This document shows, piece by piece, positions 12,124-27,692 of a stretch of DNA of 64,000 bases. The first letter of the stretch is position 1; every line of letters starts with the position of its first letter. Source of the DNA: Imtechella halotolerans. GTDB taxonomy: Bacteria > Bacteroidota > Bacteroidia > Flavobacteriales > Flavobacteriaceae. Under the pieces are notes generated by a model, which saw only the letters and a program-made list of their open reading frames with translations, was not told where the DNA came from and did no database searches. The translations under genes were made by a program, and so were the position numbers. The DNA lies in assembly GCF_028743515.2 (NCBI RefSeq), contig NZ_CP117969.2:2637501-2701500 (forward strand), written 5' to 3'.

Positions 12124-12702
12124 TTGAACAAGATAAGTATTAATAATCCATACTTTATTACTCAGTTAATTGAAGGGAATCATAATGCTTATGAAACACT
12201 GTTTCATTTGTACTTTGAAAAGCTGCACTATGTGGCTGTTAGTTATATTGAGAATACGGAGGATGCCAAGGAAATAATACAAAACATTTTTTTGAAGGTT
12301 TGGAAAAAGAAACAGATACTAACTCCTGAAATGAATTTGAATGCTTATTTGTTTAAGATGGTTAAAAACGAGTGTCTGGATTATCTTAAGCATACTAAAG
12401 TTCAGCTTAAGTACCGAAAAAAACTTGAAATTGAAAGAGCATATCTCAACGAAAAAGCCCTGAAAAATGATCCTAGTCAATTATTAATTGAAAGTGAATT
12501 GCAAAATAAAATTGAAGGGCTCATTAATCAACTTCCTGCTAATTGTAGAGAAGTTTTCATAAAAAGCAGAATAGAAGGTCTCAAATATGCTGAAATAGCA
12601 AATGAACTGAATATTTCAGTAAAAACTGTAGAAAACCAAATTTCCAAAGCACTGCGTTATTTAAGACATGAATTACAAGAATATATGGGGCTTTTTCTGT
12701 AA
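12124..12702 (+). CDS. ECF RNA polymerase sigma factor, locus 1
   Basis: A 192-residue sigma factor of the Bacteroidetes ECF group. Region 2 is visible at about 22-62 (AYETLFHLYFEKLHYVAV through EDAKEIIQNIFLKVWKKK) and region 4 at about 140-185 (LPANCREVFIKSRIEGLKYAEIANELNISVKTVENQ, located by its ends), which includes the helix-turn-helix. The only plausible start is a TTG at 12124. It is followed after 79 bases by its probable anti-sigma factor FecR and then a SusC/SusD pair, so it most likely activates this uptake locus once a substrate-loaded SusC signals through FecR. Confidence 0.87.
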   Translation: MNKISINNPYFITQLIEGNHNAYETLFHLYFEKLHYVAVSYIENTEDAKEIIQNIFLKVWKKKQILTPEMNLNAYLFKMVKNECLDYLKHTKVQLKYRKKLEIERAYLNEKALKNDPSQLLIESELQNKIEGLINQLPANCREVFIKSRIEGLKYAEIANELNISVKTVENQISKALRYLRHELQEYMGLFL

Positions 12703-12781: not shown

Positions 12782-13738
12782 ATGAAAAAAGAAGACCTCT
12801 TACGATATATTCAAAATAAAGGTGATGAAGATTTTCAACAACAAGTTGTAGATTGGATTACCTCATCCCCGGAAAATGAGAACTTTTATCATAAGGTAAA
12901 AGCTATGTATGTTGCGGAGTTTAATGTTCAAGAGAAACTGAATACAGAAGAAGCTTTCAATAAGTTCAAATTTCAAATTAAAAAACAACGCTTTCCATAT
13001 GCCAGAATTGCGGCAATATTAATTCTTGCCGTATTGGTTACTGGCCTGTATTTTACATTCAGTCCGGGTTCTCAAAAGATACCATCTGATTATGCAACGG
13101 TTCTTTCCCAGCAAAAAAGTGTTTTATTGGCAGACGGTACCAATGTGATTTTAAATGCCCAAAGTAAACTATCCGTAGATTCAGATTTCAATTTGGACTC
13201 CAGAATTGTATATCTAGAAGGAGAAGCCTTTTTTGATGTTACTGAGAATCCAGAAAAACCTTTTATTGTAAAGACAGTAAGCGGCTTAGATGTTCGGGTG
13301 TTAGGAACTACTTTTAATGTTAAATCCTACGCAAAGGATGAATCAGTAGAAACGACTCTCGTCACAGGCAAAGTTCAATTGTTTACGGGTAATGAATCTA
13401 CTCCTGTGGCAGAATTAAGTCCAGAACAAAAGGTGACCTTTAATAAGAAAAGTAGAAGTGTTGAAGTAGAAAATGTAAAGCCTGAAATTATTACTTCCTG
13501 GAGTCAGGGTGTTTTGATGTTTGAAAAAACATCCATTATTACAGCATTACACAGTATTGAGCGTTGGTATGATGTTCGTTTTGAAATCATTGATGATAAA
13601 GTTGCGTCCTATAGCTTTTCTGGAAAAATAAAAAAAGACAGCAACATAAATGAAGTATTGAGTATAATAGAAGCATCATCCCCTATAAAATATGAATATC
13701 ATGAAGATAAAAAGATAATCAGGCTATTTCAAAAGTAA
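12782..13738 (+). CDS. FecR family anti-sigma factor, locus 1
   Basis: A 318-residue inner-membrane anti-sigma factor. The cytoplasmic N-terminal segment (1-70) is followed by one membrane helix (about 74-92), a FecR periplasmic domain (about 100-200, with the LADGTNVILNAQSKL and LEGEAFFDV motifs) and a C-terminal DUF4974 domain (about 245-316, MFEKTSIITALHSIERWYDVRFEI and a final STN-like fold). It should hold the upstream ECF sigma inactive until the SusC signalling domain contacts it. Its stop codon is the start of the hairpin leading to susC. Confidence 0.88.
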   Translation: MKKEDLLRYIQNKGDEDFQQQVVDWITSSPENENFYHKVKAMYVAEFNVQEKLNTEEAFNKFKFQIKKQRFPYARIAAILILAVLVTGLYFTFSPGSQKIPSDYATVLSQQKSVLLADGTNVILNAQSKLSVDSDFNLDSRIVYLEGEAFFDVTENPEKPFIVKTVSGLDVRVLGTTFNVKSYAKDESVETTLVTGKVQLFTGNESTPVAELSPEQKVTFNKKSRSVEVENVKPEIITSWSQGVLMFEKTSIITALHSIERWYDVRFEIIDDKVASYSFSGKIKKDSNINEVLSIIEASSPIKYEYHEDKKIIRLFQK

Positions 13739-13765
13739 AAGAGGAGTGCGCCAACACCCCTCTTT
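13738..13765 (+). promoter_or_regulatory. fecR-susC leader hairpin with TGCGCCAACA apex, locus 1
   Basis: AAAGAGG (13738-13744) pairs with CCTCTTT (13759-13765); inside it, GTG pairs with CAC after one A-C mismatch, leaving the loop CGCCAA. There is no T-run after it, so it does not look like a terminator. The same apex occurs at the same place in locus 2 on a different stem. It ends 59 bases before the susC ATG. Possible RNA regulatory element or protein-binding site. Confidence 0.55.
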
Positions 13766-13824
13766 AAGCTTTAGCCGTTAATACAGTAAGCAACATTATT
13801 CACTAACTAAAACCGATTAAAATT

Positions 13825-16800
13825 ATGAAAAAAAAGCGTAACAATGCTTGGCACGCAACTCGTGTGCATTGTTTTACCAACCAACTCACTCGTATCATGA
13901 GAATTTATTCAGTTCTGATGTTTTTGACCATTGCAAAAATTTCAGCCACCAGTTTTTCAGGTTACAGTCAGGAGATTACGATCCATAAGACTGATACTCC
14001 GTTGAAGGAGGTACTACAGTCATTAGAAATTCAGACAGATTTTACTTTTTTTTACAACAACAAGTTTGTTGATGATCAGGTAAAAGTATCCCTCAATGTT
14101 GAAAATGTGAGTATAGAACACGTACTCAATACCCTACTTAAAAGAACATTTATAAAGTACCGTATTATTAATAAAAACATTGTTCTTTTCACTGAGGATG
14201 ATGCGGCCACATTAGCTAAAGAAATGGATGGGCAGTTAGCCGATTCCAAAGTTCAGGTAATCGAACAGGATAAAATTCAGGTGAAAGGTACTGTTTATGA
14301 CAGTGATGGAATGCCATTGCCAGGGGTAAACATTCTTGTGCAGGGTACTGGTTCGGGAACACAGACTGATTTTGATGGAAACTATTCTATTAGTGTTTCT
14401 TTGGGAGAGGTGCTAGTTTTTAGCTATATAGGAATGAAGAGTGCTACCAAAAAAGTGACTCCAGAGACAAAGACAATTAATATTACACTTGCGACCGATA
14501 CTAACGTTTTGAATGAGGTGATAGTTGTTGCCTATGACAAGCAAAGTAAAACCTCCTATACAGGCTCAGCAGTTGATATCGATATTAGTAAAGTAAAAGA
14601 AACTCCTATGGCTTCTTTTCAAGAGTCTTTACAAGGAAATGTGGCTGGAGTTCAAATGGTTACTCAAAGTGGTCAACCAGGTGCAGCACCTGATGTTAGA
14701 ATTAGAGGGATTGGATCTATTAATGCAGGATCAGAGCCCTTGTATGTTATTGATGGAATTCCAGTAGTAGCTGGAAATATTTCCCAAATAGCTACCAGTT
14801 CAAATACTATTGCAGGAATTAATTCAAAGGATATTGCTACTATCACTGTCCTTAAAGATGCTTCTGCTACAGCTATTTACGGTTCAAGAGGTGCCAATGG
14901 TGTTATTTTGATAACGACTAAAAAGGGAAAAACTGGAAAAACACGTTTTGATTTCAGTTCACAATATGGAATAAGTAGCATGATTCTTCCAGATAGGAAT
15001 AAACCATTGAATACTGCTGAACTGTCGGAATTACTTATTGAGAGTAGGGTAAATATAGGAGATTCTCAGGCGGATGCAGAAGCGTATATTTATAGTAGAA
15101 TAAATGAAGAAATAAATACTGATTGGGTGGATGTAATTTCTAGAGATGCCCAATACAGCCAATACAATCTGAGTGCTAGTGGAGGTGATGATAAAACCAA
15201 TTTTTATGCTTCACTAGGATTATTTGATCAAGAGGCAGTGATTATAGGGGTTGATTATAAAAAGCTCAATGCAAAAGTAAATCTATCTCATAAAGCAACA
15301 GATAAATTGAAGATAGATATTGGGTTGGCTGCTAATCATCAGAAATTACATACCAATAACGATGCGGGTGATGCGAATAATCCAGTTCGGGCCATGTTTA
15401 GAGTAGTTCCTTGGGAGTCGGTGTATAATGCTGATGGAAGCTACAATACCAACATATTGCTCACCTATAATCCAGTAGGCTTAGTGAAGGAGAATATTAG
15501 AGAGTCCAAGTTATACGGTATTATTGGAAACTTGGGTTTAACCTATGATTTTAATGATAACCTAAGCTTTGAGACGAAAGGTAATATTGACTTTAACCTA
15601 GCAGATGAATTTCAATATGATAACCCTTATTTTGGTGCTGGTCGAAATGATGGGGGTAGAGGTAGAGCCTATAATAATAAAATTATCAACTACAATATTA
15701 CCAACTTATTGAAGTACAAATGGCAGGTAAATGATAGCAATCGTTTTAATTTTATGATAGGGCAAGAAGCTCAAAAAATTGAAAGAAGTTCTGTGTTTGC
15801 TTATGCTAGTAATTATGGAGCACCAGGACTTACATCCCTGGAAAATGCTTCTGTTTATCGTGAGGCATCTAGTAGCATAACAGCATCTGCGTTGGCTTCT
15901 TATTTCTTTAATGTGAATTATGCTTTAAAGGAGCGTTATTTCTTTAATGTTACAGCACGTCGTGATGGTTCTTCTCGATTTGGTCAAGAGGTGCGATATG
16001 CCAATTTCGGATCTGTTGGACTTGCTTGGAACGTTAGTTCTGAAAGCTTTTTGAAGAATGCTGATTTCATTAAGAAATTAAAATTTAGAACTAGTTATGG
16101 TATTAATGGGAATCAGGAAATTGGAGATTTCGCCTCTCGTGGACTTTACGAAACTGGAGAAGATTACAATGGGGAACCTGGGTATATTTATGCGCAACAA
16201 TCGAACCCGCGATTGACATGGGAGAAAAACAAGCCTTTTAACGTTGGGGTTGATTTTAACCTTTTCAACCGAATTAGTGGAACTGTGGAATATTATTCAA
16301 GACAAACTACAGATCTCTTGTTTAGAGTTCCTATTTCAAGCACTAATGGTCTAACAAGCTATTTAGCAAATATCGGTGAGATGAAAAACCATGGTTGGGA
16401 ATTGGCATTGAATACTGTTAATGTTGAAAATCCGGAAGGATTTGGATGGACAACGGATATCAATTTTACTACTAATACAAATGAAATAACCAAATTACAG
16501 AATGATGAACCGATAATAAGTGGTCAGTATATTCGTGAAGTTGGTGACGATTTCTATATGTTTTATATGCCTGGATATGCTGGTGTTAATCCAGATAACG
16601 GTGAAGCACTATGGTACAAAGATGCTTCAAAGACAGAAACAACTAACAGGTATAGTGAAGCAAGACCATTTAAACAAGGAAGTGCCTTGCCAAAATTCTA
16701 TGCTGGTTTAACAAATACTTTTACCTATAAAAACATAGGTTTTTCATTTATGTGGTACCTGAACTACGGCAATAAAGTATATGATTTCTGGGGTAGGTTC

Positions 16801-17199
16801 ACAGGTAGTGACGGAAGTGCAAGATTAAATGATAGAGGAAATATGGCTCGAAGAGTATATGATAATAGATGGCAGCAGCCTGGCGATATTACTGATATTC
16901 CGAAAATGGTATGGGGGAATACACAATCAGGTTCGTCTAGTCAACATTCAACACGTTTTCTTTATGATGGAACCTATTTGCGATTAAGAGATGTGACCCT
17001 GTCATATAGTTTACCTGAATCGGTAATAGAAAAACTGAATGTAAGTAATCTACGATTTTATGTAAAAGCCGCCAACATGCTTACCTGGACTAAAGACAAA
17101 AATATTGAGGTTGATCCAGAAGTAGGAATTGATGGGCAATCTAATTTGCGAATTCCTATGTCAAAACAACTTTTATTGGGTGTAGACTTTTCATTCTAA
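13825..17199 (+). CDS. SusC/RagA family TonB-linked outer membrane receptor with STN domain, locus 1
   Basis: A 1124-residue TonB-dependent transporter. An unusually long charged N-terminus precedes the hydrophobic signal (about 30-50, ending SFSGYSQEI). Next come an STN signalling domain (about 50-115, HKTDTPLKEVLQSLEIQTDFTF start), a carboxypeptidase-like regulatory domain (about 150-220, GMPLPGVNILVQGTGSGT), the plug (VYDKQSKTSYTG region onward, with the SusC hallmark LYVIDGIPV), and a C-terminal beta-barrel ending in Phe. The STN domain marks it as a signal-transducing receptor that talks to FecR and the ECF sigma. With SusD it should import an oligomeric substrate; the cargo genes suggest peptides. 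Confidence 0.92.
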   Translation: MKKKRNNAWHATRVHCFTNQLTRIMRIYSVLMFLTIAKISATSFSGYSQEITIHKTDTPLKEVLQSLEIQTDFTFFYNNKFVDDQVKVSLNVENVSIEHVLNTLLKRTFIKYRIINKNIVLFTEDDAATLAKEMDGQLADSKVQVIEQDKIQVKGTVYDSDGMPLPGVNILVQGTGSGTQTDFDGNYSISVSLGEVLVFSYIGMKSATKKVTPETKTINITLATDTNVLNEVIVVAYDKQSKTSYTGSAVDIDISKVKETPMASFQESLQGNVAGVQMVTQSGQPGAAPDVRIRGIGSINAGSEPLYVIDGIPVVAGNISQIATSSNTIAGINSKDIATITVLKDASATAIYGSRGANGVILITTKKGKTGKTRFDFSSQYGISSMILPDRNKPLNTAELSELLIESRVNIGDSQADAEAYIYSRINEEINTDWVDVISRDAQYSQYNLSASGGDDKTNFYASLGLFDQEAVIIGVDYKKLNAKVNLSHKATDKLKIDIGLAANHQKLHTNNDAGDANNPVRAMFRVVPWESVYNADGSYNTNILLTYNPVGLVKENIRESKLYGIIGNLGLTYDFNDNLSFETKGNIDFNLADEFQYDNPYFGAGRNDGGRGRAYNNKIINYNITNLLKYKWQVNDSNRFNFMIGQEAQKIERSSVFAYASNYGAPGLTSLENASVYREASSSITASALASYFFNVNYALKERYFFNVTARRDGSSRFGQEVRYANFGSVGLAWNVSSESFLKNADFIKKLKFRTSYGINGNQEIGDFASRGLYETGEDYNGEPGYIYAQQSNPRLTWEKNKPFNVGVDFNLFNRISGTVEYYSRQTTDLLFRVPISSTNGLTSYLANIGEMKNHGWELALNTVNVENPEGFGWTTDINFTTNTNEITKLQNDEPIISGQYIREVGDDFYMFYMPGYAGVNPDNGEALWYKDASKTETTNRYSEARPFKQGSALPKFYAGLTNTFTYKNIGFSFMWYLNYGNKVYDFWGRFTGSDGSARLNDRGNMARRVYDNRWQQPGDITDIPKMVWGNTQSGSSSQHSTRFLYDGTYLRLRDVTLSYSLPESVIEKLNVSNLRFYVKAANMLTWTKDKNIEVDPEVGIDGQSNLRIPMSKQLLLGVDFSF

Positions 17200-17211
17200 A
17201 CTATGACAATC

Positions 17212-18621
17212 ATGAAAAAACAAATCATATCTATTTATACAGCAATTATATTAATGGCGGGTTTTACAGCTTGTAGCAATGACTTTCTCGATATTAAACC
17301 CGAGCAGAATGTGGCAGATGAAGATGCCATTACAGATGTTAATACACTAAAAACGGCTATTAATGGAGTTTATAGTAGATTGCAAAGCAGTGATTATTAT
17401 GGCAGGAGTATGTATGTTATTCCTGAATTGATGGCCGATAATTTGTTTCTAAGTTCTAGAAATACAGGAAGATATCTCGATTACGACAATTTTGTCGTTG
17501 CGGATGAAGATACATTTGCAGAAGGTGCTTGGGATGTAATGTATGAGGTGGTGGTGAATGCAACAAAAGCCATTGTAAGAGGTCAAGAGATAGAATCGAC
17601 CTCACAGGCACATCAGAATCAACTTAATGCTTTAATTGGTGAAGCCTATGCATTACGTGCCTTAGCACATTTTGATTTGGTTCGGATGTTCGCACAACCT
17701 TATAATTATTCTGAGAATGCAGCTCATTTAGGGATCGCTGTGATAAAGACGGTAAGTGCTGATGAAATTAAGCCAGCACGCAGTAGTGTTAAAGAAGTGT
17801 ATGATCATATCAATGATGATTTAAATCAAGCAATAGCCTTTCTTCCCAATAGTAATAATAATGGACACTTTAATGCCACAGCGGCTAAAGCACTAGCAGC
17901 AAGAGTGGCCCTTTATCAAGAAGATTATGACAGGGCAATTGCATTAAGTACTGAAGTTATTAATAATGGAAATCAATTAATTAGTAATTCTAATTATTTT
18001 GATATTTGGGATCAGGAGTTCAATTCAGAATCTTTATTTGAGATTGTAAATACAATTGCAGATAATCCTGGAACCAATAGTTTAGGTCATTATTTTGATG
18101 TAAACGGATATGCAGATGCATTGGTTGCAGAGGACTTAATTAATGCTTTTGATGCTAATGATATTCGTCTTGAAGCGATCTTAGAAGGGTCAAAACCTGG
18201 AGCTGAAGAGCTCGCTTTTTTTGTAGGAAAATTCCCCAAAGGTACTTCACATGATGATAATATACGTATCCTAAGGTTATCGGAGCAGTATTTAATCAGA
18301 GCGGAAGCTTATGTTAATGTTAATGAAGAAGAATTGGCTCAGGAAGATATTCTTACTATTGCCCAAAGAGCTAACCCTTCAGTTACTGAAATTACAGAAA
18401 CTGGAGCAGCCCTTATTGATAGAATTTTACTTGAGAGACGTAAAGAACTAGCCTTTGAAGGTCATCGTCTTTTTGACCTAAACAGAAATAAGAGATCAGT
18501 AACGATTATTCAAGGAGATCAGAGTATTCAAGCGGAATATCCGAATGACAAATTTATACTTCCTATTCCCTTGAGTGAATTGAATGCTAATACTAATATG
18601 GTACCTAATCCAGGTTATTAA
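17212..18621 (+). CDS. RagB/SusD family surface lipoprotein, locus 1
   Basis: A 469-residue substrate-capture lipoprotein. The lipobox is FTAC with Cys21-22 in MKKQIISIYTAIILMAGFTA followed by CSNDFLD, and the opening FLDIKPEQNV is typical of SusD. The tetratricopeptide-like helices (for example LIGEAYALRALAHFDLVRMF) and the C-terminal ending PIPLSELNANTNMVPNPGY are family hallmarks. It acts as the lid of the SusC barrel on the cell surface. The ATG at 17212 begins the signal peptide; an ATG three codons earlier is possible. Its stop overlaps the next ATG by one base, so the epimerase is coupled to it. Confidence 0.92.
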   Translation: MKKQIISIYTAIILMAGFTACSNDFLDIKPEQNVADEDAITDVNTLKTAINGVYSRLQSSDYYGRSMYVIPELMADNLFLSSRNTGRYLDYDNFVVADEDTFAEGAWDVMYEVVVNATKAIVRGQEIESTSQAHQNQLNALIGEAYALRALAHFDLVRMFAQPYNYSENAAHLGIAVIKTVSADEIKPARSSVKEVYDHINDDLNQAIAFLPNSNNNGHFNATAAKALAARVALYQEDYDRAIALSTEVINNGNQLISNSNYFDIWDQEFNSESLFEIVNTIADNPGTNSLGHYFDVNGYADALVAEDLINAFDANDIRLEAILEGSKPGAEELAFFVGKFPKGTSHDDNIRILRLSEQYLIRAEAYVNVNEEELAQEDILTIAQRANPSVTEITETGAALIDRILLERRKELAFEGHRLFDLNRNKRSVTIIQGDQSIQAEYPNDKFILPIPLSELNANTNMVPNPGY

Positions 18622-19661
18622 TGTTTGAAATTAGTTATAAACCATACATATTACAAAAAAAGTATGTATTCAGGATTGCAGGAGGTGCTCGTTCGAGTAC
18701 CCCTGTAATGCTGATAAGGGTTAAGTACGAAGGTGTTTGTGGGTATGGAGAAGCTTCCATGCCTCCCCTTTATGGTGAAACCATTGATTCAGCAGAAGCT
18801 TTTTTAACCAAAGTGGACTTGAATAGGTTTAAGAATCCTTTCGGATTGGAGGAAATTCTAACTTATATTGATGCAATAGAACCTGGAAATCCAGCAATAA
18901 AAGCGGCCATAGATATTGCTCTTCACGATCTTGTTGGGAAATTATTGAATGTACCCATTCATTCCCTTTTTGGTCTTTCAGCTGGGCGAATGTCTACTAG
19001 TAAAACTATTGGGATTGATTCTGCTCAAATAATTGCTCAACGGGTAGCAGAAGCAAATTCATTTAAATTTCTTAAAATTAAATTGGGTGCCGACAATGAT
19101 GAAGAGATAATGCAAGCGGTTCGATCCTGTACCAATCAACCACTGTATATTGATGCTAATCAGGGTTGGAAAGACAAACATCAGGCCTTGGAAAAAATAC
19201 ATTGGCTTAAGGAGCAAAATGTAATCTTTATAGAACAACCTCTTTTGAAATCAGCAATTGAGGATCAGCAATGGCTGGCAGCTCATTCGCCTCTACCTAT
19301 TGTTGGAGATGAATCTGTACAGCGATTACAAGATGTGTACAAAGCAGCAAACCTGTTTCATGGTGTAAATATTAAACTAATGAAGTCAACAGGTTTAAGA
19401 GAAGCATTTAAAATGGGTGCAGCTGCTCAGTCCATGGGCCTTAAAATTATGCTGGGTTGTATGTCTGAAACATCCTGTGCAATTGGTGCAGCTGCTCAAC
19501 TAGGAAGTCTCGCTGATTGGGTTGATTTAGATGGGAACCTAGGTATTTTAAACGATCCATTTGTAGGGCACCAAGTAGAAAAAGGTATTATTAATGTAAA
19601 TAAACTTCCTGGTGTTGGTCTTCAACCAGTAGACTGGGATCGAATAGCTGCATGTAAATGA
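18621..19661 (+). CDS. dipeptide epimerase (probable L-Ala-D/L-Glu epimerase)
   Basis: A cytoplasmic enolase-superfamily enzyme of 346 residues. All catalytic positions are present: K152-x-K154 (LKIKLG), metal ligands D178 (YIDAN), E205 (FIEQP) and D230 (VGDES), the second base K252 (NIKLMKS), and the C-terminal D302-x-D304 motif that in dipeptide epimerases binds the substrate amino group. This set matches L-Ala-D/L-Glu epimerases, which invert the second residue of murein dipeptides so that they can be split by ordinary dipeptidases. Exact dipeptide specificity varies in the family and is not settled here. It is coupled to SusD and overlaps the next gene by four bases. Confidence 0.85.
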   Translation: MFEISYKPYILQKKYVFRIAGGARSSTPVMLIRVKYEGVCGYGEASMPPLYGETIDSAEAFLTKVDLNRFKNPFGLEEILTYIDAIEPGNPAIKAAIDIALHDLVGKLLNVPIHSLFGLSAGRMSTSKTIGIDSAQIIAQRVAEANSFKFLKIKLGADNDEEIMQAVRSCTNQPLYIDANQGWKDKHQALEKIHWLKEQNVIFIEQPLLKSAIEDQQWLAAHSPLPIVGDESVQRLQDVYKAANLFHGVNIKLMKSTGLREAFKMGAAAQSMGLKIMLGCMSETSCAIGAAAQLGSLADWVDLDGNLGILNDPFVGHQVEKGIINVNKLPGVGLQPVDWDRIAACK

Positions 19662-21004
19662 AACACATACTTAGTTCTGTAAAACTTTTAATTGTAATAT
19701 CAGTTTTTCTAGCATGTTACTCTTGCAATCAACTACCATCTCACGACCAACTGACTGAAGAAATAGTTGTTGATCCAGCACTAGATTCTCTTTTTATTTG
19801 GTTAAATAAGAATAACATGTTTAATGGAGCTGTGGCCATAAAAAAAGAAGGAAAACTTTTGTTGAAAAAGGGATATGGATTTGCAAATTATCATCGTAAT
19901 GATCGATTTCAACCTTCTACTTCCATGGAAATTGCTTCTGTTTCTAAACAGTTTACAGCTACTGCTATCGCGCTTTTAATTCAAGAAGGAAAGATTGGCT
20001 TAGAAGATACTGTTAAGAAGTATCTTGGGGAGGATTTTCCATATGAAGGAGTTACCATTAAAAACTTAGTCACTCACACATCAGGGATTCCTGATTACGA
20101 AGATTATTTTAAATCAAATTGGGATACAACCAAGATTGCTACCAACGCTGATATTGTTCGCTATTTCAAGACTGAAAAACCTGGGGGATTATTACCAGGG
20201 CAGTATTATCACTATTCAAATTCAGGGTATATTCTACTGGCCGAAATTGTAGAGGCTGTTAGTGGTGAAACCTTGGACACTTTTCTAAATAATCAAATTT
20301 TTTCAGTGGCCAATATGAAACAATCTGGCTTTTATCATAGAGATAGTATTTGGAATATACAAGGATATGCTCCGGCCTATATGATAGGGGGAAAAGAGTG
20401 TCATTATAGTAAGCCTGAACATTTGCCAAAAAAGAACTACTATCGCTTTTTAAGTGGAAGGTTTGGATCAGGTAGGCAAAGTTCAAGTGTTGATGATTTG
20501 ATAAAATGGGATAGTATACTTTATACAGATGAGATTCTTACTGAAAGAGGTAGAGCTTTGGCGTACACCATATATCCTCCTGAAAAGGATAGTTCCGATT
20601 ATGGTTTTGGTTGGCATATTTACCATCTCAAAAATCTTGGAAAGGTGGTTTATCATACAGGAAGTTGGGCTGGAAATCAAAGTTATATTAAAAGATATAT
20701 TGATCAAAAAAGTGTGATTGTTTTACTCAATAACACACATTCCCCATACATGAAGGAAGTCCGATCAATTTTAGATGATTATTTGGAAGGAAAACCTTTG
20801 CGAAGACCCAGAGTAAGAGCAGTGGAGCAATTGAAACGGGACATCTGTAATTTGAATCTACACAACTTAAAAGAGTGGAAATTGGAACACCCGGGTATGA
20901 TATGGGATACAGTACAATTGAAACAATTATTAACCTTTTATGACAGCTATGGCGATGAAAACAAGAAAGCTATAATTCTGTCCTTTTGGAACGTTAAATC
21001 ATGA
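19658..21004 (+). CDS. beta-lactamase-like serine hydrolase lipoprotein
   Basis: An exported class C beta-lactamase/DD-peptidase-fold enzyme of 448 residues. The N-terminus is a lipoprotein signal (Cys20 or Cys23 in FLACYSCNQ). The catalytic motifs are S94-V-S-K97, Y186-S-N188 and an HTG-type triad (YHTGSWAGN, about 333-341). Such proteins act on D-amino-acid-containing peptides, for example as D-aminopeptidases, DD-carboxypeptidases or esterases. A 60-residue tail follows the hydrolase domain. It lies between the dipeptide epimerase and a DUF819 membrane protein with four-base overlaps on both sides, so a role in trimming peptidoglycan-type peptides before or during uptake is plausible, though not shown. 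Confidence 0.85.
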   Translation: MKHILSSVKLLIVISVFLACYSCNQLPSHDQLTEEIVVDPALDSLFIWLNKNNMFNGAVAIKKEGKLLLKKGYGFANYHRNDRFQPSTSMEIASVSKQFTATAIALLIQEGKIGLEDTVKKYLGEDFPYEGVTIKNLVTHTSGIPDYEDYFKSNWDTTKIATNADIVRYFKTEKPGGLLPGQYYHYSNSGYILLAEIVEAVSGETLDTFLNNQIFSVANMKQSGFYHRDSIWNIQGYAPAYMIGGKECHYSKPEHLPKKNYYRFLSGRFGSGRQSSSVDDLIKWDSILYTDEILTERGRALAYTIYPPEKDSSDYGFGWHIYHLKNLGKVVYHTGSWAGNQSYIKRYIDQKSVIVLLNNTHSPYMKEVRSILDDYLEGKPLRRPRVRAVEQLKRDICNLNLHNLKEWKLEHPGMIWDTVQLKQLLTFYDSYGDENKKAIILSFWNVKS

Positions 21005-22251
21005 AACATACTCCTTTTATTACCAATGATGCGGTGGTTTTTGGTATGCTAGCCGTCATTCTTGGATTTATATTTATTAGCTCTTCTAGTGATAAATCAT
21101 TTTGGAAGAAATTTTATGGCATTGTACCTTCAGTGCTTTTATGTTATTTTATACCTGCGCTTCTCAATACGTTTGGCATAGTAGATGGTAAAAGTTCTCA
21201 ATTGTATTTCGTAGCCTCACGTTATTTGCTGCCTTGTAGTTTAATTTTACTAACGTTAAGTATTGATTTTAAAGAATTGCGAAAACTTGGTAATAAGGCA
21301 TTGATTATGTTTTTTGCCGGAACACTTGGTATTATAATTGGAGGGCCGTTAGCCTTATATCTTGTAGGAAGTGCTTTTCCTGAAGTGCTATTCAGTAATG
21401 GAGAACCTGTGTGGAGAGGGCTGACCACAATAGCAGGTAGTTGGATAGGAGGAGGTGCGAATCAAACTGCCATGTATGAGGTGTTTGATGTTAGTTCAGG
21501 GCTTTTTGCTCAAATGATTGCAGTAGATGTAATCATCGCTAATATTTGGATGGGATTTATCCTGTATGGATCCCAGAAGCACGCCAAGATCGATGCTTTT
21601 CTTAAGGCTGATCATACACCTATTAAAAAACTTGAAAGGAAACTTGAAGACCAACAAGCAGGTAAGAGTGTGCCAGTAACTGTCCCTAGGCTTATGACAT
21701 TGTTGGCGATCGCTTTTGGAGTAAGTGGATTATCTCACTTCTTGGCTGATATTATAGCTCCCTATTTTCAGGAAAATTACCCTGAACTATCTAAATACTC
21801 ATTGACAAGTACGTTCTTTTGGCTTATCGTAATTGCGACCACTTTAGGTCTTTTCCTCTCTACTACTAAAGTAAGAAAGGTGGAGAGTTATGGAGCCTCT
21901 AAAATGGGAAGTGTTTTTCTCTATATTTTGGTCGCCTCTATAGGGATGCATATGGATCTTGGGGCTATATTAGATAACCCTATTTTGTTTCTAATAGGAC
22001 TCGTGTGGGTACTGATCCATGTGATTGTTTTGCTTCTAGTGGCAAGAATAATCAGGGCTCCTTTCTTTTATGTTGCAGTAGGTAGTCAAGCAAATATAGG
22101 AGGGGCAGCTTCAGCTCCAATCGTTGCCGCTTCATTTAGCCCATATTTGGCTCCTGTAGGGGTGTTGCTAGCTGTGTTAGGGTACGCAGTAGGTACATAT
22201 GGAGCCTATGTCTGTGGATTGATTTTGTCCTGGACATTTAGTTCAATTTAA
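21001..22251 (+). CDS. DUF819 family multi-pass membrane protein
   Basis: A 416-residue integral membrane protein with about ten to eleven hydrophobic helices and the DUF819 signatures GSWIGGGANQTAMYEVF (about 140-157) and VGSQANIGGAASAPIVAA (about 359-376), two glycine-rich repeats related by an internal duplication as in ion-coupled transporters. The family is related to gluconate or sodium:solute permease folds and its substrate is unknown. As last gene of the epimerase operon it is a good candidate for the inner-membrane importer of the dipeptide or amino acid handled there. A strong terminator follows its stop. Confidence 0.85.
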   Translation: MKHTPFITNDAVVFGMLAVILGFIFISSSSDKSFWKKFYGIVPSVLLCYFIPALLNTFGIVDGKSSQLYFVASRYLLPCSLILLTLSIDFKELRKLGNKALIMFFAGTLGIIIGGPLALYLVGSAFPEVLFSNGEPVWRGLTTIAGSWIGGGANQTAMYEVFDVSSGLFAQMIAVDVIIANIWMGFILYGSQKHAKIDAFLKADHTPIKKLERKLEDQQAGKSVPVTVPRLMTLLAIAFGVSGLSHFLADIIAPYFQENYPELSKYSLTSTFFWLIVIATTLGLFLSTTKVRKVESYGASKMGSVFLYILVASIGMHMDLGAILDNPILFLIGLVWVLIHVIVLLLVARIIRAPFFYVAVGSQANIGGAASAPIVAASFSPYLAPVGVLLAVLGYAVGTYGAYVCGLILSWTFSSI

Positions 22252-22263
22252 AAGAAATTATGT

Positions 22264-22290
22264 AAAGCAACCTCTATAAGGTTGCTTTTT
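22264..22290 (+). terminator. rho-independent terminator of locus 1
   Basis: AAAGCAACCT (22264-22273) pairs perfectly with AGGTTGCTTT (22279-22288) around CTATA, followed by further T residues. It closes the sigma-to-DUF819 operon 12 bases after the last stop. Confidence 0.9.
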
Positions 22291-22404
22291 TGTACCTATT
22301 AATTTTAACTTTAATAATTCTATAAGAAAGTTAAATGGTTTTTAAGTTTTAACAATTTGTTTAATTTAGCATAACATCGAGTTAAGTGGGAAAAGTAATT
22401 ATTG

Positions 22405-22932
22405 ATGTTAATTGTTCAAAGGTTAAAAAGAGAAGATATATCCGCACTTGAGGAAGTATACAATAAACACTTTGCTCGTGTATATTCAATAGCATTCAAG
22501 TATGTTAGGGATGACTATTTGGCATCTGATTTAGTACATGATGTTTTTATTAAATTATGGAAAAATAGGGAGAAACTATCAGAAGAATTAACATTGGATC
22601 ATCAGTTGTTTGTAATAACAAAAGGGATTGTAATTGACTATTTAAGAAAGAAAGTACGAGAAGAAAAGCTTCTTTATGATTACCAAACTACATTAGAAGA
22701 ACCAGAGGAGGATACAAAAAATGACTTAAGAAATAGTCGTCTTCGTAAGATGTATTCTATTATCGAAACTATGCCAAAAAGACAGCAGGTAGTTTTTAAA
22801 ATGATAAGGTTGGAAGGCTTTACTTATGATGAGGTTGCCGAAAGACTTAATATCTCTAAGAATACAGTGTCAAATCATTTTACCGCAGCCATGAAGTTTC
22901 TAAGAAAGAAAATTTATTTTCTATTTTTTTAG
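22405..22932 (+). CDS. ECF RNA polymerase sigma factor, locus 2
   Basis: A 175-residue ECF sigma factor. Region 2 covers about 10-55 (LEEVYNKHFARVYSIAFKYV and DLVHDVFIKLWKNREKL), and region 4 about 115-165 (MPKRQQVVFKMIRLEGFTYDEVAERLNISKNTVSNH by its ends). The ATG at 22405 follows directly after an in-frame TTG and is the better start. It precedes fecR, susC, susD and an M16 peptidase gene, and should control them. It shares only family-level similarity with the locus 1 sigma, so the two loci are not a recent duplication. Confidence 0.87.
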   Translation: MLIVQRLKREDISALEEVYNKHFARVYSIAFKYVRDDYLASDLVHDVFIKLWKNREKLSEELTLDHQLFVITKGIVIDYLRKKVREEKLLYDYQTTLEEPEEDTKNDLRNSRLRKMYSIIETMPKRQQVVFKMIRLEGFTYDEVAERLNISKNTVSNHFTAAMKFLRKKIYFLFF

Positions 22933-22978
22933 GGATAAATTAAGCTTGAATCAAAAATTTAACATTTTAAACTAGTGA

Positions 22979-23029
22979 TTTCATGAAATTGAATCGTATT
23001 CCTAGTAAAGGAATCAAAATTTCATGAAA
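22979..23029 (+). promoter_or_regulatory. imperfect inverted repeat covering the fecR start codon, locus 2
   Basis: TTTCATGAAATT (22979-22990) is complementary to AATTTCATGAAA (23018-23029), and between them ATTCCT (22998-23003) pairs with AGGAAT (23009-23014). In RNA the fecR AUG at 23024 would lie in the outer stem. A 14-codon ORF (22983-23027) begins in the left arm and its TGA overlaps the fecR ATG. The arrangement could limit or couple fecR translation. It may also act as DNA, since each arm is itself a palindrome. Confidence 0.45.
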
Positions 23030-24139
23030 AAGGAAATTGAATATTTAATCGAAAAGCTCACAAAGGGGATGGGCTCAGAAGAAGATATAAATAAGTTGAT
23101 ATCATATCTTAAATCTGGAGATTATAGTGAAATTGAAAAAGAACTTAAGGAAGAATGGGAAAAGGATTTTCATAGAATTTATAATACCACTCAAAAAGAA
23201 GTAACCCTAAGAAAAATACAGAAGAGTATTAGGAAGGAGAAGAGAGGCAGAATGTTTAGAAGAATTCATACTGTTTCAAGGTACGCAGCTGTTTTTGTTG
23301 GGATTGTGGTTGTTTCTGTTTGGGTATACAAGTATCAATTACAACCTACCATTCCTTTAGATAAAATTACCATAGAGCAAAATGATGGTACTATTTTAAT
23401 TATCGAGGATAATGATACTTCTAAGCCATTATTGTCAAGTGATTTAAAACGAGACTTGATAGCTCCTGGAGACAGGACGAAAGCTTCTGATGTGGAATAT
23501 AACACACTGAGAATTCCAAACGGTAAAAAACTTCATTTGCAATTATCAGATAGCACTATAGTCATACTAAATTCTGGTTCACATTTTAAATTTCCAGTTG
23601 AGTTTGTCCCAAATGAAAAAAGGCAGGTATATTTAGATGGTGAGGCTTATTTTAAGGTAACACATAATCCAAGGAATCCATTTGTTGTGAGGGGGAACAG
23701 TACTGAAACAGAAGTGTTAGGAACAGAGTTTAATGTATCTACTTATTCTGATCAGGAAACTGAAAACATTGTTTTGGTTGAGGGAAAAGTTAAGGTTTAT
23801 GACACTCAAGGTAATGCTCCACTTGAGTTAGATCCAGGCCAATTAGCTAGTTTAGTTAAAAACTCTTCTACTATACAAAAATCAGATGTTGATGTGTTTA
23901 ATTATGTGGCATGGACCTATGGTATATTGGTTTTTAGCAATGAGTCTTTTGGCCAATTGATCCCAAAATTAGAGAGATTTTACGGTGTTGAAATTTCAAT
24001 GAATAATCCTGAATTAAAAACCAAAAGATTCACCGGAAGATTTGAGTATGAAACTGTTGAAGAGTTATTAAGCACCTTTCAAAAGACAACAAGGTTTAGC
24101 TTCACCAAAACGAATTATAAAATTAGTATTAACCCTTAA
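23024..24139 (+). CDS. FecR family anti-sigma factor, locus 2
   Basis: A 371-residue anti-sigma factor: cytoplasmic segment 1-80, a membrane helix at about 86-103, FecR domain (about 160-265, with LRIPNGKKLHLQLSDSTIVI, LDGEAYFKVTHNPRNPF and VLGTEFNVSTY), and DUF4974 (about 295-370). An extra insert of about 45 residues (DKITIEQNDGTILIIEDNDT onward) lies between the helix and the FecR domain; this is seen in many long flavobacterial FecR proteins. It should control the preceding ECF sigma. The start codon lies within a predicted RNA stem. Confidence 0.88.
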   Translation: MKKEIEYLIEKLTKGMGSEEDINKLISYLKSGDYSEIEKELKEEWEKDFHRIYNTTQKEVTLRKIQKSIRKEKRGRMFRRIHTVSRYAAVFVGIVVVSVWVYKYQLQPTIPLDKITIEQNDGTILIIEDNDTSKPLLSSDLKRDLIAPGDRTKASDVEYNTLRIPNGKKLHLQLSDSTIVILNSGSHFKFPVEFVPNEKRQVYLDGEAYFKVTHNPRNPFVVRGNSTETEVLGTEFNVSTYSDQETENIVLVEGKVKVYDTQGNAPLELDPGQLASLVKNSSTIQKSDVDVFNYVAWTYGILVFSNESFGQLIPKLERFYGVEISMNNPELKTKRFTGRFEYETVEELLSTFQKTTRFSFTKTNYKISINP

Positions 24140-24172
24140 ACCAACATGTATGACTAAGTTTCGATAAAAAAA

Positions 24173-24198
24173 ACGGGAAATGCGCCAACATTCCCCGT
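24173..24198 (+). promoter_or_regulatory. fecR-susC leader hairpin with TGCGCCAACA apex, locus 2
   Basis: ACGGG (24173-24177) pairs with CCCGT (24194-24198) and AA (24179-24180) with TT (24191-24192), around the apex TGCGCCAACA (24181-24190) in which TG pairs with CA. The loop and closing pairs equal those of locus 1, while the outer stem bases differ and remain complementary. It ends 53 bases before the susC ATG and has no T-run. Confidence 0.55.
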
Positions 24199-24251
24199 AT
24201 GAAAATTTAAAAATTTTAAAAACTATTCAATTCTTAAATCACATCAAAATT

Positions 24252-27200
24252 ATGAAAAATTATCAAGCTTATCCTTCTCTTAAAAGGGTAAAGTTGAATC
24301 AAACGCTGTTCAGGCTTTTTGTGTTTTCTTTTTTTGTACTTAGTATTCTTCCTGCAAAGGCAGAAGTTTATTTACAAAGCAAAATCTCATTGAGATTAAT
24401 GTCAGCGCCACTTGAAAAAGTATTCAAAGAAATCGAGAAGGTAACTCAATACAGTGTTTTCTATCAAAACTCTTCCATTGATACCAGTAAGAAAATATCC
24501 GTTGACTTTAAAGAGGTGGAAATCGAAGAAGCAATGGAATTTATACTTAAGGGTACAAACATAAAGTTTGAAATTCTTAAAAATCAAATCATACTTACAC
24601 CAAAACCGAGCAAAATTGAAAAGAATTTATCGCAAGTAGGTATTATTCAGGAAAATGTTATTCATGGTGTTGTTCTGGATGAAAATAAGTTTCCGTTATT
24701 GGGGGCAACTGTAAAAATTAAAGGAACTTCCAAAGGAACCTCAACTGATTTTGATGGGAAATTTTCATTACAAGCGCAACCTAATATGATCCTGGAAGTA
24801 TCATATGTGGGTTTTAAAACAAAGGAAGTTAATGTTGGTAATCTAAATCGACTTGAGATTGTATTAGAGACAGACTTCGGGGCTCTTGATGAGGTTATTG
24901 TTGTCGGTTATGGAACTACAGACAAACAAAATATTGTGGGTTCTGTAGGAGTGGTTAATATACAGGCTTTACAAACTCAGGCTCCTACAATTAATCTAGA
25001 TAATGCATTACAGGGACAATTAGCTGGGGTATATATATCAAGTGCTAATGGTCAACCTGGAGCGCCTGCCCGAGTGAGAATTCGTGGAACAACATCCTTA
25101 CAGGGTTCAAACCAACCATTATATGTAATTGATGGCATCCCAGTAGTTCCTGACAGCAATATTCCAACCCAAGGAAGAGGAGGGCAAAATTTGGGGAGTG
25201 AACTTGCCCAACAGGGTCTTAACACGCCTATAGGAAATATTAATATAAATGATATAGAATCGATAAGTGTTCTAAAGGATGCCTCCGCAGGTGCAATTTA
25301 TGGATCTCGTGCTGCTAACGGGGTTATAATAATAACCACTAAAACAGGTAAATATGGTCAAGGGTCAAAGTTTAACGTTGATTATTCAGTAAGTATACAA
25401 GAACCAAAGACCCTAGACGTACTGAATGCAGAGCAGTTTAAGAAAGTAACTTTAACTGCGGTGCAGAATGGGGTGATTAACAATGCCTATACCCAAAGTG
25501 TGCTGGATGGTTCCTATTTTGGGAATGTTGATACTAATTGGGAATCAATGCTCAAGCCTTCCATGGCATTGACTTCTAATTTTAATATAAATGTCCAAGG
25601 CGGAAATGAATCAACACGCTATTTTTCCGCAGTTGGGGCAAATAATCAAGAAGGTTCCTTTAAGGGATCTAAATTTGATCGGTATTCATTTAAATTGAAT
25701 TTGAATACTAAAATTAACGAGATTTGGGATTTTGGGGTAACATCAAATTTATCCTTTAGTGAACAACAAGCCTTAGATGGAGCCTTGGTTGATAGGATGT
25801 ATATTTTTAGACCTGATTTACCTGTTTATGATAATGATGGAGGGTATTCTTTTTCTCAAGGGTATGCACTAGAGAATCCAGTCGCTTTATCTAAGGCGCG
25901 CAATAGTAATCAGACATTATTATTACTTACCTCTATTTTTACAGAATTAAAAATTTCAGAAGGTCTTAAGGCTAGAACCCTTATTTCACTTAATTATAAT
26001 AATGGTAATCAATTTAGTTTTTATCCAAGATTTACTTCTCGAGGTGGGTGGCATCGATTAACAGGAGAAGGCGACGGTTATGCACAAGAAAGTAAAGGCA
26101 ATTTTTCCAATGTAATGTGGGAAAACACACTTCGCTATAATAAATCATTCAAAGGAATTCATAATATTGATGCAGTACTTGGAGCTTCTTTTGAGCAGAA
26201 TAGTACGTCCCAAGTAAAGGCCTGGGGCACTGGTTTTTTTAACGATGTACTCACTAATATTTCAAGTGCGACGGTAAGTAGAGATGCTTCCTCACTAAAG
26301 ACTGCCTATGGTTTGGAGTCTTATTTTGGTAGATTGAACTATAATTATGAGGGTAAATATTTAATGAGTTTTTCAGCTAGAATAGATGGCTCTTCCAAGT
26401 TTGCAAGAGAAAATAAACATGCTTTTTTTCCTGCTTTTGCATTAGGGTGGAGGTTGTCTGAGGAATCATTTCTAAGCAAATTTGAAAAAGTTGATGATCT
26501 TAAATTAAAAGTAAGTTGGGGTATGACTGGTCAGCAAGATTTTGGACCATACCAATGGAGAACACTGTATGAGACAGATGATTACGGAGGACAACCTTCA
26601 GTGGTAATGACTCAATTAGGGAATGATCGTTTAAAATGGGAACGTAGTAAACAATTTGATGTTGGACTTGATTACTCTTTTTTTAATAGTCGTTTGTCTG
26701 GAACTGTTGGTTATTATATTAAAAGCACGGAAGACGCCATTTTTACAGCCATAACACCAGGTAATACGGGGTTTAGCTCTGTCTTAGCCAATGTTGGAAG
26801 CACTGAAAATAAGGGAATTGAGTTTGAAGTTAATGGGGATATTATTAAGTCAAATAATTTTAATTGGAATTTGTCTTTAAACATGAGTTTTAATAGAAAT
26901 AAGCTCACTAAAATTTCAGATGATTTTAAGGATGAATCAGGGTTTTTAACTGGTTTTCCTGGTGGAGGGCGGCTAAAGGAAGGCAGTCCTATTGGGTTGA
27001 TTTATGGGTATGTGTCTGAAGGGATTTTTCAAACCCAAGAAGAAATAAATCTACTTAACCAAGGATCCTCAACAGGGATATATCAAGCGGCTGCTACATC
27101 TCCAGGAGATCTGAAATTTAAAGATATCAACGATGATGGCCGTATTACAGCAGAGGATCAAGAGGTTATCGGAGATACTCAGCCTGATTTTTTTGGAGGG

Positions 27201-27692
27201 CTTATTAGTACAGTTTCACTCCAGGGTTTTTCCTTAACCGCAATGTTTACCTATTCCATGGGCAATGATTTACATTGGTTTAATCAGGCCAGGTCGATTA
27301 ATTTTTTCAATTCCTCATTTGGAGAAAATAAAACACCGGAAGTGTTGAATGCATGGACTGCTGAAAGACCAACAAATCAACCTCGAATAGTGTATGGTGA
27401 CCCAAATGATAACGACCGAATTTCTAGTTACTACGTGTATGAGGCTTCCTATTTACGGTTGAAATCACTGAACTTGGGTTATTCTTTTTCGCCAGAGACA
27501 ATCAAGCAGATTGGAATAATAAATAGCCTGTCGGTATATGTTAGTGGACAAAACTTATTCACTTTTACCAAATACCCTGGGGCTGACCCAGAAGCTTCAA
27601 ATTTATATAATAATGATATTAGTGCCGGAAGAGATAATAATAGATATCCTATTTCGAGAATCTTTACGGCAGGATTGCGAGTTGGATTTTAA
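24252..27692 (+). CDS. SusC/RagA family TonB-linked outer membrane receptor with STN domain, locus 2
   Basis: A 1146-residue receptor. The signal peptide (about 1-38, ending LPAKAEV) is followed by an STN domain (about 45-105, LRLMSAPLEKVFKEIEKVTQ start), a carboxypeptidase-like domain (about 140-205), a plug with the SusC motif PLYVIDGIPVVP, and a beta-barrel with a C-terminal VGF. The STN domain implies signalling to FecR and the ECF sigma. The ATG at 24252 is chosen because the earlier ATG at 24180 falls in the leader hairpin and would add 24 residues before the signal peptide. The cargo peptidase suggests import of oligopeptides. Confidence 0.92.
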   Translation: MKNYQAYPSLKRVKLNQTLFRLFVFSFFVLSILPAKAEVYLQSKISLRLMSAPLEKVFKEIEKVTQYSVFYQNSSIDTSKKISVDFKEVEIEEAMEFILKGTNIKFEILKNQIILTPKPSKIEKNLSQVGIIQENVIHGVVLDENKFPLLGATVKIKGTSKGTSTDFDGKFSLQAQPNMILEVSYVGFKTKEVNVGNLNRLEIVLETDFGALDEVIVVGYGTTDKQNIVGSVGVVNIQALQTQAPTINLDNALQGQLAGVYISSANGQPGAPARVRIRGTTSLQGSNQPLYVIDGIPVVPDSNIPTQGRGGQNLGSELAQQGLNTPIGNININDIESISVLKDASAGAIYGSRAANGVIIITTKTGKYGQGSKFNVDYSVSIQEPKTLDVLNAEQFKKVTLTAVQNGVINNAYTQSVLDGSYFGNVDTNWESMLKPSMALTSNFNINVQGGNESTRYFSAVGANNQEGSFKGSKFDRYSFKLNLNTKINEIWDFGVTSNLSFSEQQALDGALVDRMYIFRPDLPVYDNDGGYSFSQGYALENPVALSKARNSNQTLLLLTSIFTELKISEGLKARTLISLNYNNGNQFSFYPRFTSRGGWHRLTGEGDGYAQESKGNFSNVMWENTLRYNKSFKGIHNIDAVLGASFEQNSTSQVKAWGTGFFNDVLTNISSATVSRDASSLKTAYGLESYFGRLNYNYEGKYLMSFSARIDGSSKFARENKHAFFPAFALGWRLSEESFLSKFEKVDDLKLKVSWGMTGQQDFGPYQWRTLYETDDYGGQPSVVMTQLGNDRLKWERSKQFDVGLDYSFFNSRLSGTVGYYIKSTEDAIFTAITPGNTGFSSVLANVGSTENKGIEFEVNGDIIKSNNFNWNLSLNMSFNRNKLTKISDDFKDESGFLTGFPGGGRLKEGSPIGLIYGYVSEGIFQTQEEINLLNQGSSTGIYQAAATSPGDLKFKDINDDGRITAEDQEVIGDTQPDFFGGLISTVSLQGFSLTAMFTYSMGNDLHWFNQARSINFFNSSFGENKTPEVLNAWTAERPTNQPRIVYGDPNDNDRISSYYVYEASYLRLKSLNLGYSFSPETIKQIGIINSLSVYVSGQNLFTFTKYPGADPEASNLYNNDISAGRDNNRYPISRIFTAGLRVGF

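Follow-up and report, generated by a model that had tools for sequence, protein, structure and literature searches.

The stretch analysed here (the window) comprises 64,000 nucleotides of contig NZ_CP117969.2 of Imtechella halotolerans. It carries two operons, each with a fecI-type ECF sigma factor gene, a fecR anti-sigma gene, susC and susD on the plus strand (Table 1). SusCD systems serve Bacteroidota as the principal importers of large nutrients. Operon 1 goes on (18621-21004) with a dipeptide-epimerase-like gene and a D-aminopeptidase/beta-lactamase-fold gene, both scoring under curated cut-offs, and operon 2 is followed by an M16 peptidase gene (29167-31986). The annotated neighbours of both operons (Pfam, NCBIfam) indicate peptides as much as glycans; judged by these genes, the substrates may be peptides or muropeptides.

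Hairpins between fecR and susC

Each fecR–susC gap contains a hairpin, located where the original prediction had placed it (locus 1 and locus 2, Table 1). The 3' ends of the hairpins lie 59 (locus 1) and 53 (locus 2) bases ahead of the susC ATGs. The exact 10-mer of the shared apex occurs twice in the window vs 0.08 copies expected. The apex TGCGCCAACA has four copies in the 3.1 Mb genome; the two beyond the window hairpins lie inside ORFs, on the opposite strand. RTGCGCCAACAYNCC is present in 3 of 60 genomes, this one included; in the other two it stands once before a susC and once within an ORF. Read in the susC direction (sense), each window hairpin contains one A.C mismatch, which had been overlooked. 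Folded in sense, the whole gap is more stable than its shuffles at locus 1 (z -2.50) but not at locus 2 (z -0.20). A search of Rfam 15 at gathering scores found no hairpin family, the window yielding a tRNA only and 12 related loci yielding no match; identity with an Rfam family was therefore rejected.

An in-frame ATG inside hairpin 2 (window 24180-24252) would extend the susC2 ORF by 24 codons; by context, 24252 is the likelier start.

Table 1. Features of the two operons and their fecR–susC gaps, in window coordinates.
Feature	Position	Strand	Basis
fecI-type ECF sigma factor 1	12124..12702	+	Pfam, NCBIfam
fecR anti-sigma 1	12782..13738	+	Pfam
Predicted antisense RNA 1, ~85 nt	13729..13813	-	5' end inferred from -7 box; box spacing from PMC9723704
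Interrupted T-tract TACTTTT after stem, weaker than that of locus 2	13731..13737	-	Sequence
Terminator hairpin, predicted antisense RNA 1	13738..13765	-	Terminator scan (minus only), -16.1 kcal/mol; fold; family covariation
5' hairpin, predicted antisense RNA 1	13768..13813	-	Fold of 85 nt RNA
Antisense -7-like box TAATTTTA across susC1 start codon, 5/6 consensus positions	13818..13825	-	Sequence; enrichment
susC 1, predicted target of RNA 1	13825..17199	+	TIGR04056, 803 bits
susD 1	17203..18621	+	Pfam
fecI-type ECF sigma factor 2	22402..22932	+	Pfam
fecR anti-sigma 2	23024..24139	+	Pfam
Predicted antisense RNA 2, ~77 nt	24164..24240	-	5' end inferred from -7 box
T-run after stem, TTTTTTTT including last stem-side base 24173	24166..24172	-	Sequence
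Terminator hairpin, predicted antisense RNA 2	24173..24198	-	Terminator scan (minus only), -14.6 kcal/mol; R2 match E 5.6e-8, yet the R2 alignment includes locus 2
5' hairpin, predicted antisense RNA 2	24204..24240	-	Fold of 77 nt RNA
Antisense -7 box TAATTTTG across susC2 start codon, perfect match	24245..24252	-	Sequence
susC 2, predicted target of RNA 2	24252..27692	+	TIGR04056, 860 bits
susD 2	27704..29047	+	Pfam

Recurrence, covariation and terminator structure

A model built from both window hairpins (R1) was searched in 199 genomes of the family and matched 14 places in 11 of them. Eight matches have the orientation of a susC that starts about 51-77 bases away, and one of these, L012, lacks a fecR; another four adjoin fecR on the reverse strand, and the remaining two (L010 and L011) are terminators elsewhere. 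R1, a two-sequence model, is loop-biased. The L010 and L011 terminators, from two other genera, share the TGCGCCAACA apex and are flanked by A-run and T-run on both sides; the gene ahead of both is presumably purB-like.

Gaps downstream of fecR were also sampled regardless of hairpins. From 20 genomes, 11 of them chosen for having R1 matches, 127 fecR loci were used (L040-L042 and many listed FecR matches were left out); one without a downstream ORF was dropped, leaving 126 gaps in 17 genomes. The ORF downstream of the gap resembles the SusC of the window in 124 of 126 cases and does not in two. The first in-frame ATG was taken as the start codon, which is incorrect at some loci; locus 2 was set to 24252. 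In the sense reading, 53 of the 126 gaps hold a hairpin of at most -5 kcal/mol at 40-62 bases before the ATG, and 15 hold one elsewhere. Some of the gaps first counted as negative, lacking a sense hairpin, carry an antisense terminator, which is found at 38-66 nt in 65 of 126.

Alignment A2 joins 44 of the 53 hairpins (those with 6-base loops) to the two window loci. Across these 46 hairpins 94.7% of cells pair, a value not approached by any of 500 shuffles or by any slid version, and double changes occur at 12 of 12 pairs. The covariation first read from two loci is thus confirmed. Together with recurrence at a fixed place before susC, it supports the original proposal of a selected RNA structure linked to susC.

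The bases flanking the hairpins are directional. No T-run follows the sense hairpin (T at most 28% at each of the 7 following bases, n = 53), and the 5 bases ahead of it are A at 81-92% (53 hairpins, sense). Seen from the minus strand, the A-run turns into a T-run that follows the hairpin, as in an intrinsic terminator. The claim that the hairpins have no T-run therefore holds for the plus strand and fails for the minus strand, where the stem leads into TTTTTTTT at locus 2 and into the interrupted TTTTACTTTT at locus 1. Both marks of an intrinsic terminator, a stable stem and a T-run abutting it, are found on the minus strand.

Both window hairpins are among the 77 terminators that a plain scan of 464 kb of this genome lists, and they are found on the minus strand only; the remark that they are not usual terminators is not supported. 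Under a strict rule (a hairpin of at most -9 kcal/mol abutting 6 T in 8), terminators within 130 bases of the ATG occur in 75 of 126 gaps in antisense and in 2 of 126 in sense. As a control, 53 further genes of this genome were taken whose same-strand neighbour lies 60-400 bases upstream; they give 1/53 in antisense and 10/53 in sense. A plus-strand terminator of fecR was rejected on the absence of a T-run in the fecR–susC direction and on the two strict sense terminators among 126 gaps. The strict rule is missed by 51 of the 126 gaps, and 19 of 126 have neither terminator nor box (see below); by eye, and uncounted, many gaps failing the rule contain a longer two-hairpin antisense structure. 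The TG-N6-CA apex occurs in 38 of the 75 strict terminators, so it is common and not universal; the apical loop is often near YTGCAR, nearly its own reverse complement. Stem and apex are conserved between genera, which, judged by eye, sets them apart from other terminators in this genome.

A model of the antisense hairpin (R2) finds matches in 17 of 40 relatives. R2 served to check the condition that would refute the original prediction, matches equally frequent elsewhere. In the 40 relatives all 36 places at E <= 1e-5 are linked to susC or fecR: 31 adjoin a fecR match and 5 lie before a susC-type ORF, with 24 of the 36 being part of R2's own alignment and 12 outside it. At weaker E-values and in other families, most of the matches examined do not lie before susC. 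Across the class, R2 matches 16 of 198 genomes at E <= 1e-3, and only 5 of the 22 loci examined outside this genome precede a susC-type ORF. Outside the family, R2 alone mostly recovers ordinary terminators.

Other signals occur at the edges of these gaps. GCCTATG stands near the fecR stop, inside or outside the fecR coding end, in 23 of 126 gaps (12/53 + 11/73) vs about 0.2 or fewer expected per set; it is perhaps part of the susC promoter. In the first susC codons (+3 to +85), sense hairpins of at most -6 kcal/mol are found in 40% and 34% of two subsets vs 8-9% after codon shuffling, and antisense hairpins in 36% and 25%. The hairpin excess in the susC coding start may be a further RNA element.

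The predicted antisense RNAs and competing readings

TAnnTTTG is the -7 box recognised by the main sigma factor and is located at -12 to -5 (PMC9723704). An antisense copy lies across the susC ATG and is perfect in 55 of 126 starts; in a comparison sample of 257 other ORFs from this genome it is perfect in 1, and the 2 SusC-like ORFs of that sample are without it (0/2). Boxes with at least 5 of 6 positions cover 98 of 126 starts vs 3 of 53 control genes and, in named genomes, 51 of 78 loci vs 7 of 205. The A-rich start context may, at least partly, have a role in translation. The -33 box of the Bacteroidota sigma-A promoter is TTG or TTTG. Upstream of the -7-like box no such element is enriched: CAA at +17 to +24 reaches 23% vs 19% in codon-shuffled sequences, and CAAA 4% vs 12%. 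A full -33/-7 antisense promoter was therefore rejected.

The 5' end of the predicted RNA was placed 5 bases beyond the box, following the box spacing of -12 to -5 (PMC9723704). Both window RNAs fold as a 5' hairpin plus the terminator: RNA 1 (85 nt) at z -3.68 and RNA 2 (77 nt) at z -4.33, each with 0/200 shuffles equally stable. From box to terminator, 72 of the 75 strict loci give a predicted RNA of 67-112 nt, with a median of 79; the other three, with a 5' part below 18 nt, were left out of the length and 5'-part counts. In these 72 loci the pre-terminator part has a mean z of -2.8, with 60/72 at or below -1 and 0 at or above +1. RNAalifold on the full-length alignment A3 (36 of 42 sequences + the two window loci) displays the terminator alone, because MAFFT mis-registers the 5' hairpin; when the 5' helix is specified by hand, 74% of its cells pair. 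A second antisense type is visible by eye, with an A+U-rich hairpin adjoining the box followed by a long, large-loop terminator stem, mostly ahead of SusC proteins starting like MKINLTN.

Both hairpins are real but encoded on the minus strand, and each looks like the terminator of a small antisense RNA. Considering the strand, terminator, covariation, box enrichment, 5' hairpin and recurrence computed here, each hairpin is best read as an intrinsic terminator that ends a short cis-antisense RNA opposite the susC leader, an RNA that probably represses susCD (probability about 0.78). In the proposed sequence of events, the sigma-A-type -7 box over the susC ATG on the minus strand would start transcription about 12 bases before the ATG, directed away from susC. 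The RNA (~85 or ~77 nt) would form two hairpins, one at the 5' end and one as terminator, end at or just past fecR, and be complementary to the susC 5' leader. susCD would then most likely be held low until FecI/FecR is induced and FecI released, as with DonS in Bacteroides, and repression might act by leader pairing or polymerase collision. Promoter activity, the exact 5' end, expression, and repression with its mechanism enter this scheme as predictions. Control of susC, as originally proposed, is still likely, but through an antisense RNA and not through a sense cis-element. The interrupted T-tract of locus 1 counts against the reading, as do the lack of an enriched -33 box, the possible translational role of the A-rich start context, the gaps that miss the strict rule, the strict antisense terminators at just 27 of 78 loci in named genomes, and the presence of both marks at 7 of the 12 fecR-linked susC genes of this genome. 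The identical loop of the two window loci would allow cross-talk between them.

An antisense terminator without a dedicated small RNA, stopping stray or long antisense transcription from within susC before it reaches fecR, is an unlikely explanation, though one that accounts for the best-supported part, the terminator itself. It would also suit the lack of an enriched -33 box, and antisense start sites in B. thetaiotaomicron mostly gave short, weak and maybe spurious transcripts (PMC7366714). Such a roadblock has no need of the second, independent antisense hairpin between box and terminator, nor of so strong an enrichment of the -7 box at a single place; conservation of loop and stem also goes beyond the needs of termination. 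The second (5') hairpin in particular favours a specific RNA over a bare roadblock.

The original prediction instead viewed the hairpin as a leader element of the susC mRNA, either a cis-regulator or a binding site. The fixed distance to susC and the covariation suit this view, and a weaker sense hairpin does form. The polarity of the mismatches argues the other way. In the 53 hairpins read in sense, non-Watson-Crick pairs comprise A.C 30, T.G 12, G.T 5 and 3 others; the 12 T.G pairs, which would speak for the sense strand, sit at the loop edge (by eye), where a 4-base loop was called instead of 6. Conversion to the minus strand turns A.C into G.U, and in the antisense view the inner ten pairs of the 46 hairpins contain G.U 32, U.G 2 and A.C 2. 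The best hairpin is stronger by at least 2 kcal/mol in antisense in 92 of 126 gaps and in sense in just 7, and the pre-terminator part is better by at least 1 kcal/mol in antisense in 63 of 72 loci and in sense in 1. Because mismatch polarity, folding energy and T-run all point to the minus strand, the hairpin is placed there, and a sense leader element is not supported and appears decidedly improbable.

A palindromic DNA operator for a dimeric protein would explain why the stem sequence GGGAAATG..CATTTCCC is conserved alongside its pairing, yet a DNA site requires neither double changes at 12/12 pairs, nor a G.U bias on one strand, nor an adjoining T-run, and this reading is very improbable. 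Chance likeness of the two hairpins, for which one could cite that the window holds two loci only and that the exact 10-mer is rare in relatives (3/60 genomes, own included), has a negligible probability and is already ruled out by recurrence and covariation, as well as by the 10-mer count and the 75/126 strict antisense terminators vs 1/53 in controls.

Distribution and comparison with known systems

In this genome, 30 susC genes score above the family cut-off. Twelve follow one of the 12 fecR matches that were listed out of 17. Of these 12, 11 have a box of at least 5 positions, a strict antisense terminator is present at 7 (with 24252 as the start of locus 2) and 7 have both. The 18 other susC genes, without a listed fecR match, include 4 with a box at the first ATG, 4 with a terminator and 2 with both (L355 and L360). 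These two (susC near 753725 and 1559269) are closely similar genes that have in common a perfect antisense box and a strong antisense terminator. Another minus-strand terminator with a TG-N6-CA apex (L221, ~15539, beside L342) lies just ahead of a susC without a listed fecR match.

In named genomes, 78 of 80 loci have an ORF, SusC-like in 75 of 78. Strict antisense terminators occur at 27 of the 78 loci, and strict sense terminators at 3. By order, assigned by hand, the counts are Bacteroidales 7/29, Cytophagales 1/8, Chitinophagales and allies 7/22, Sphingobacteriales 4/6, Flavobacteriales 6/10 and others 2/3. The signature is present in named genomes of five Bacteroidota orders, and the arrangement seems widespread in the phylum.

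A broader idea is tentative, and on balance doubtful: an ancient, phylum-wide antisense clamp on ECF-controlled SusC genes. The start codon would double as the opposing -7 box, so that "on" (FecI) and "off" (antisense) circuits would share the same bases; the apex would be kept for leader pairing or RNA-chaperone binding; and paralogues whose loops are identical, the two window loci for instance, could act on each other's susC.

Antisense RNAs of this kind are known in gut Bacteroides. DonS is one of a family of cis-antisense RNAs of 78-128 nt, divergent to susC homologues and reducing their expression (PMC7366714). The family goes back to Cao et al. 2016, as cited in PMC7366714, PMC10994844, PMC11697453 and PMC9723704. 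In B. thetaiotaomicron, ten more RNAs have the DonS orientation, five of them confirmed by Northern blot (PMC7366714), and a later count is 32 (PMC10994844). The mechanism of DonS is called unknown in PMC11697453. For Flavobacterium psychrophilum, 287 CDS-antisense transcripts were offered as a starting point for such studies (PMC9723704). Among the papers listed by literature searches outside subscription journals and preprints, none was on such RNAs at susC in Flavobacteriaceae.

The broader significance is twofold. A covarying gap hairpin may belong to the opposite strand, and the polarity of G.U vs A.C can decide which strand encodes it. Such RNAs could be predicted from genomes alone by a combined signature: a -7 box in antisense that overlaps the start codon, a 5' hairpin and, about 50 bases upstream, a terminator that covaries. 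It extends DonS-type RNAs beyond Bacteroidales and makes their mechanism testable in many species.

Compared with an ordinary intrinsic terminator, the window hairpins share a G+C stem that leads into a T-run on the minus strand, but the window-type stem and apex are conserved between genera, unlike (by eye) those of other terminators in this genome. Small RNA control of SusC mRNA in Bacteroidota also has precedents in the FopS and GibS sRNAs of Bacteroides (PMC11697453), although here it is predicted; FopS acts in trans via a seed (same paper), whereas the RNAs here lie opposite their own target. DonS is the closest parallel. Like DonS, the window RNAs would be divergent and lie opposite the start of a susC homologue, a placement predicted from the box over the ATG and the terminator upstream, and ECF sigma and anti-sigma genes accompany them. 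Their length also agrees (67-112 nt predicted vs 78-128 nt); the window RNAs would measure 85 nt, within the DonS range, and 77 nt, 1 nt under it, with ends that are themselves predicted. The DonS type goes with PULs for host-derived glycans; around the window loci the annotated genes indicate peptides as much as glycans. Unlike DonS, the window RNAs are predicted rather than observed, occur in a different order, are likened to DonS by description and not by sequence, and stand in operons whose other genes are for an epimerase and a peptidase-like protein, or for an M16 peptidase, instead of being clear glycan genes. By this analogy, the two window RNAs are predicted members of the DonS kind.
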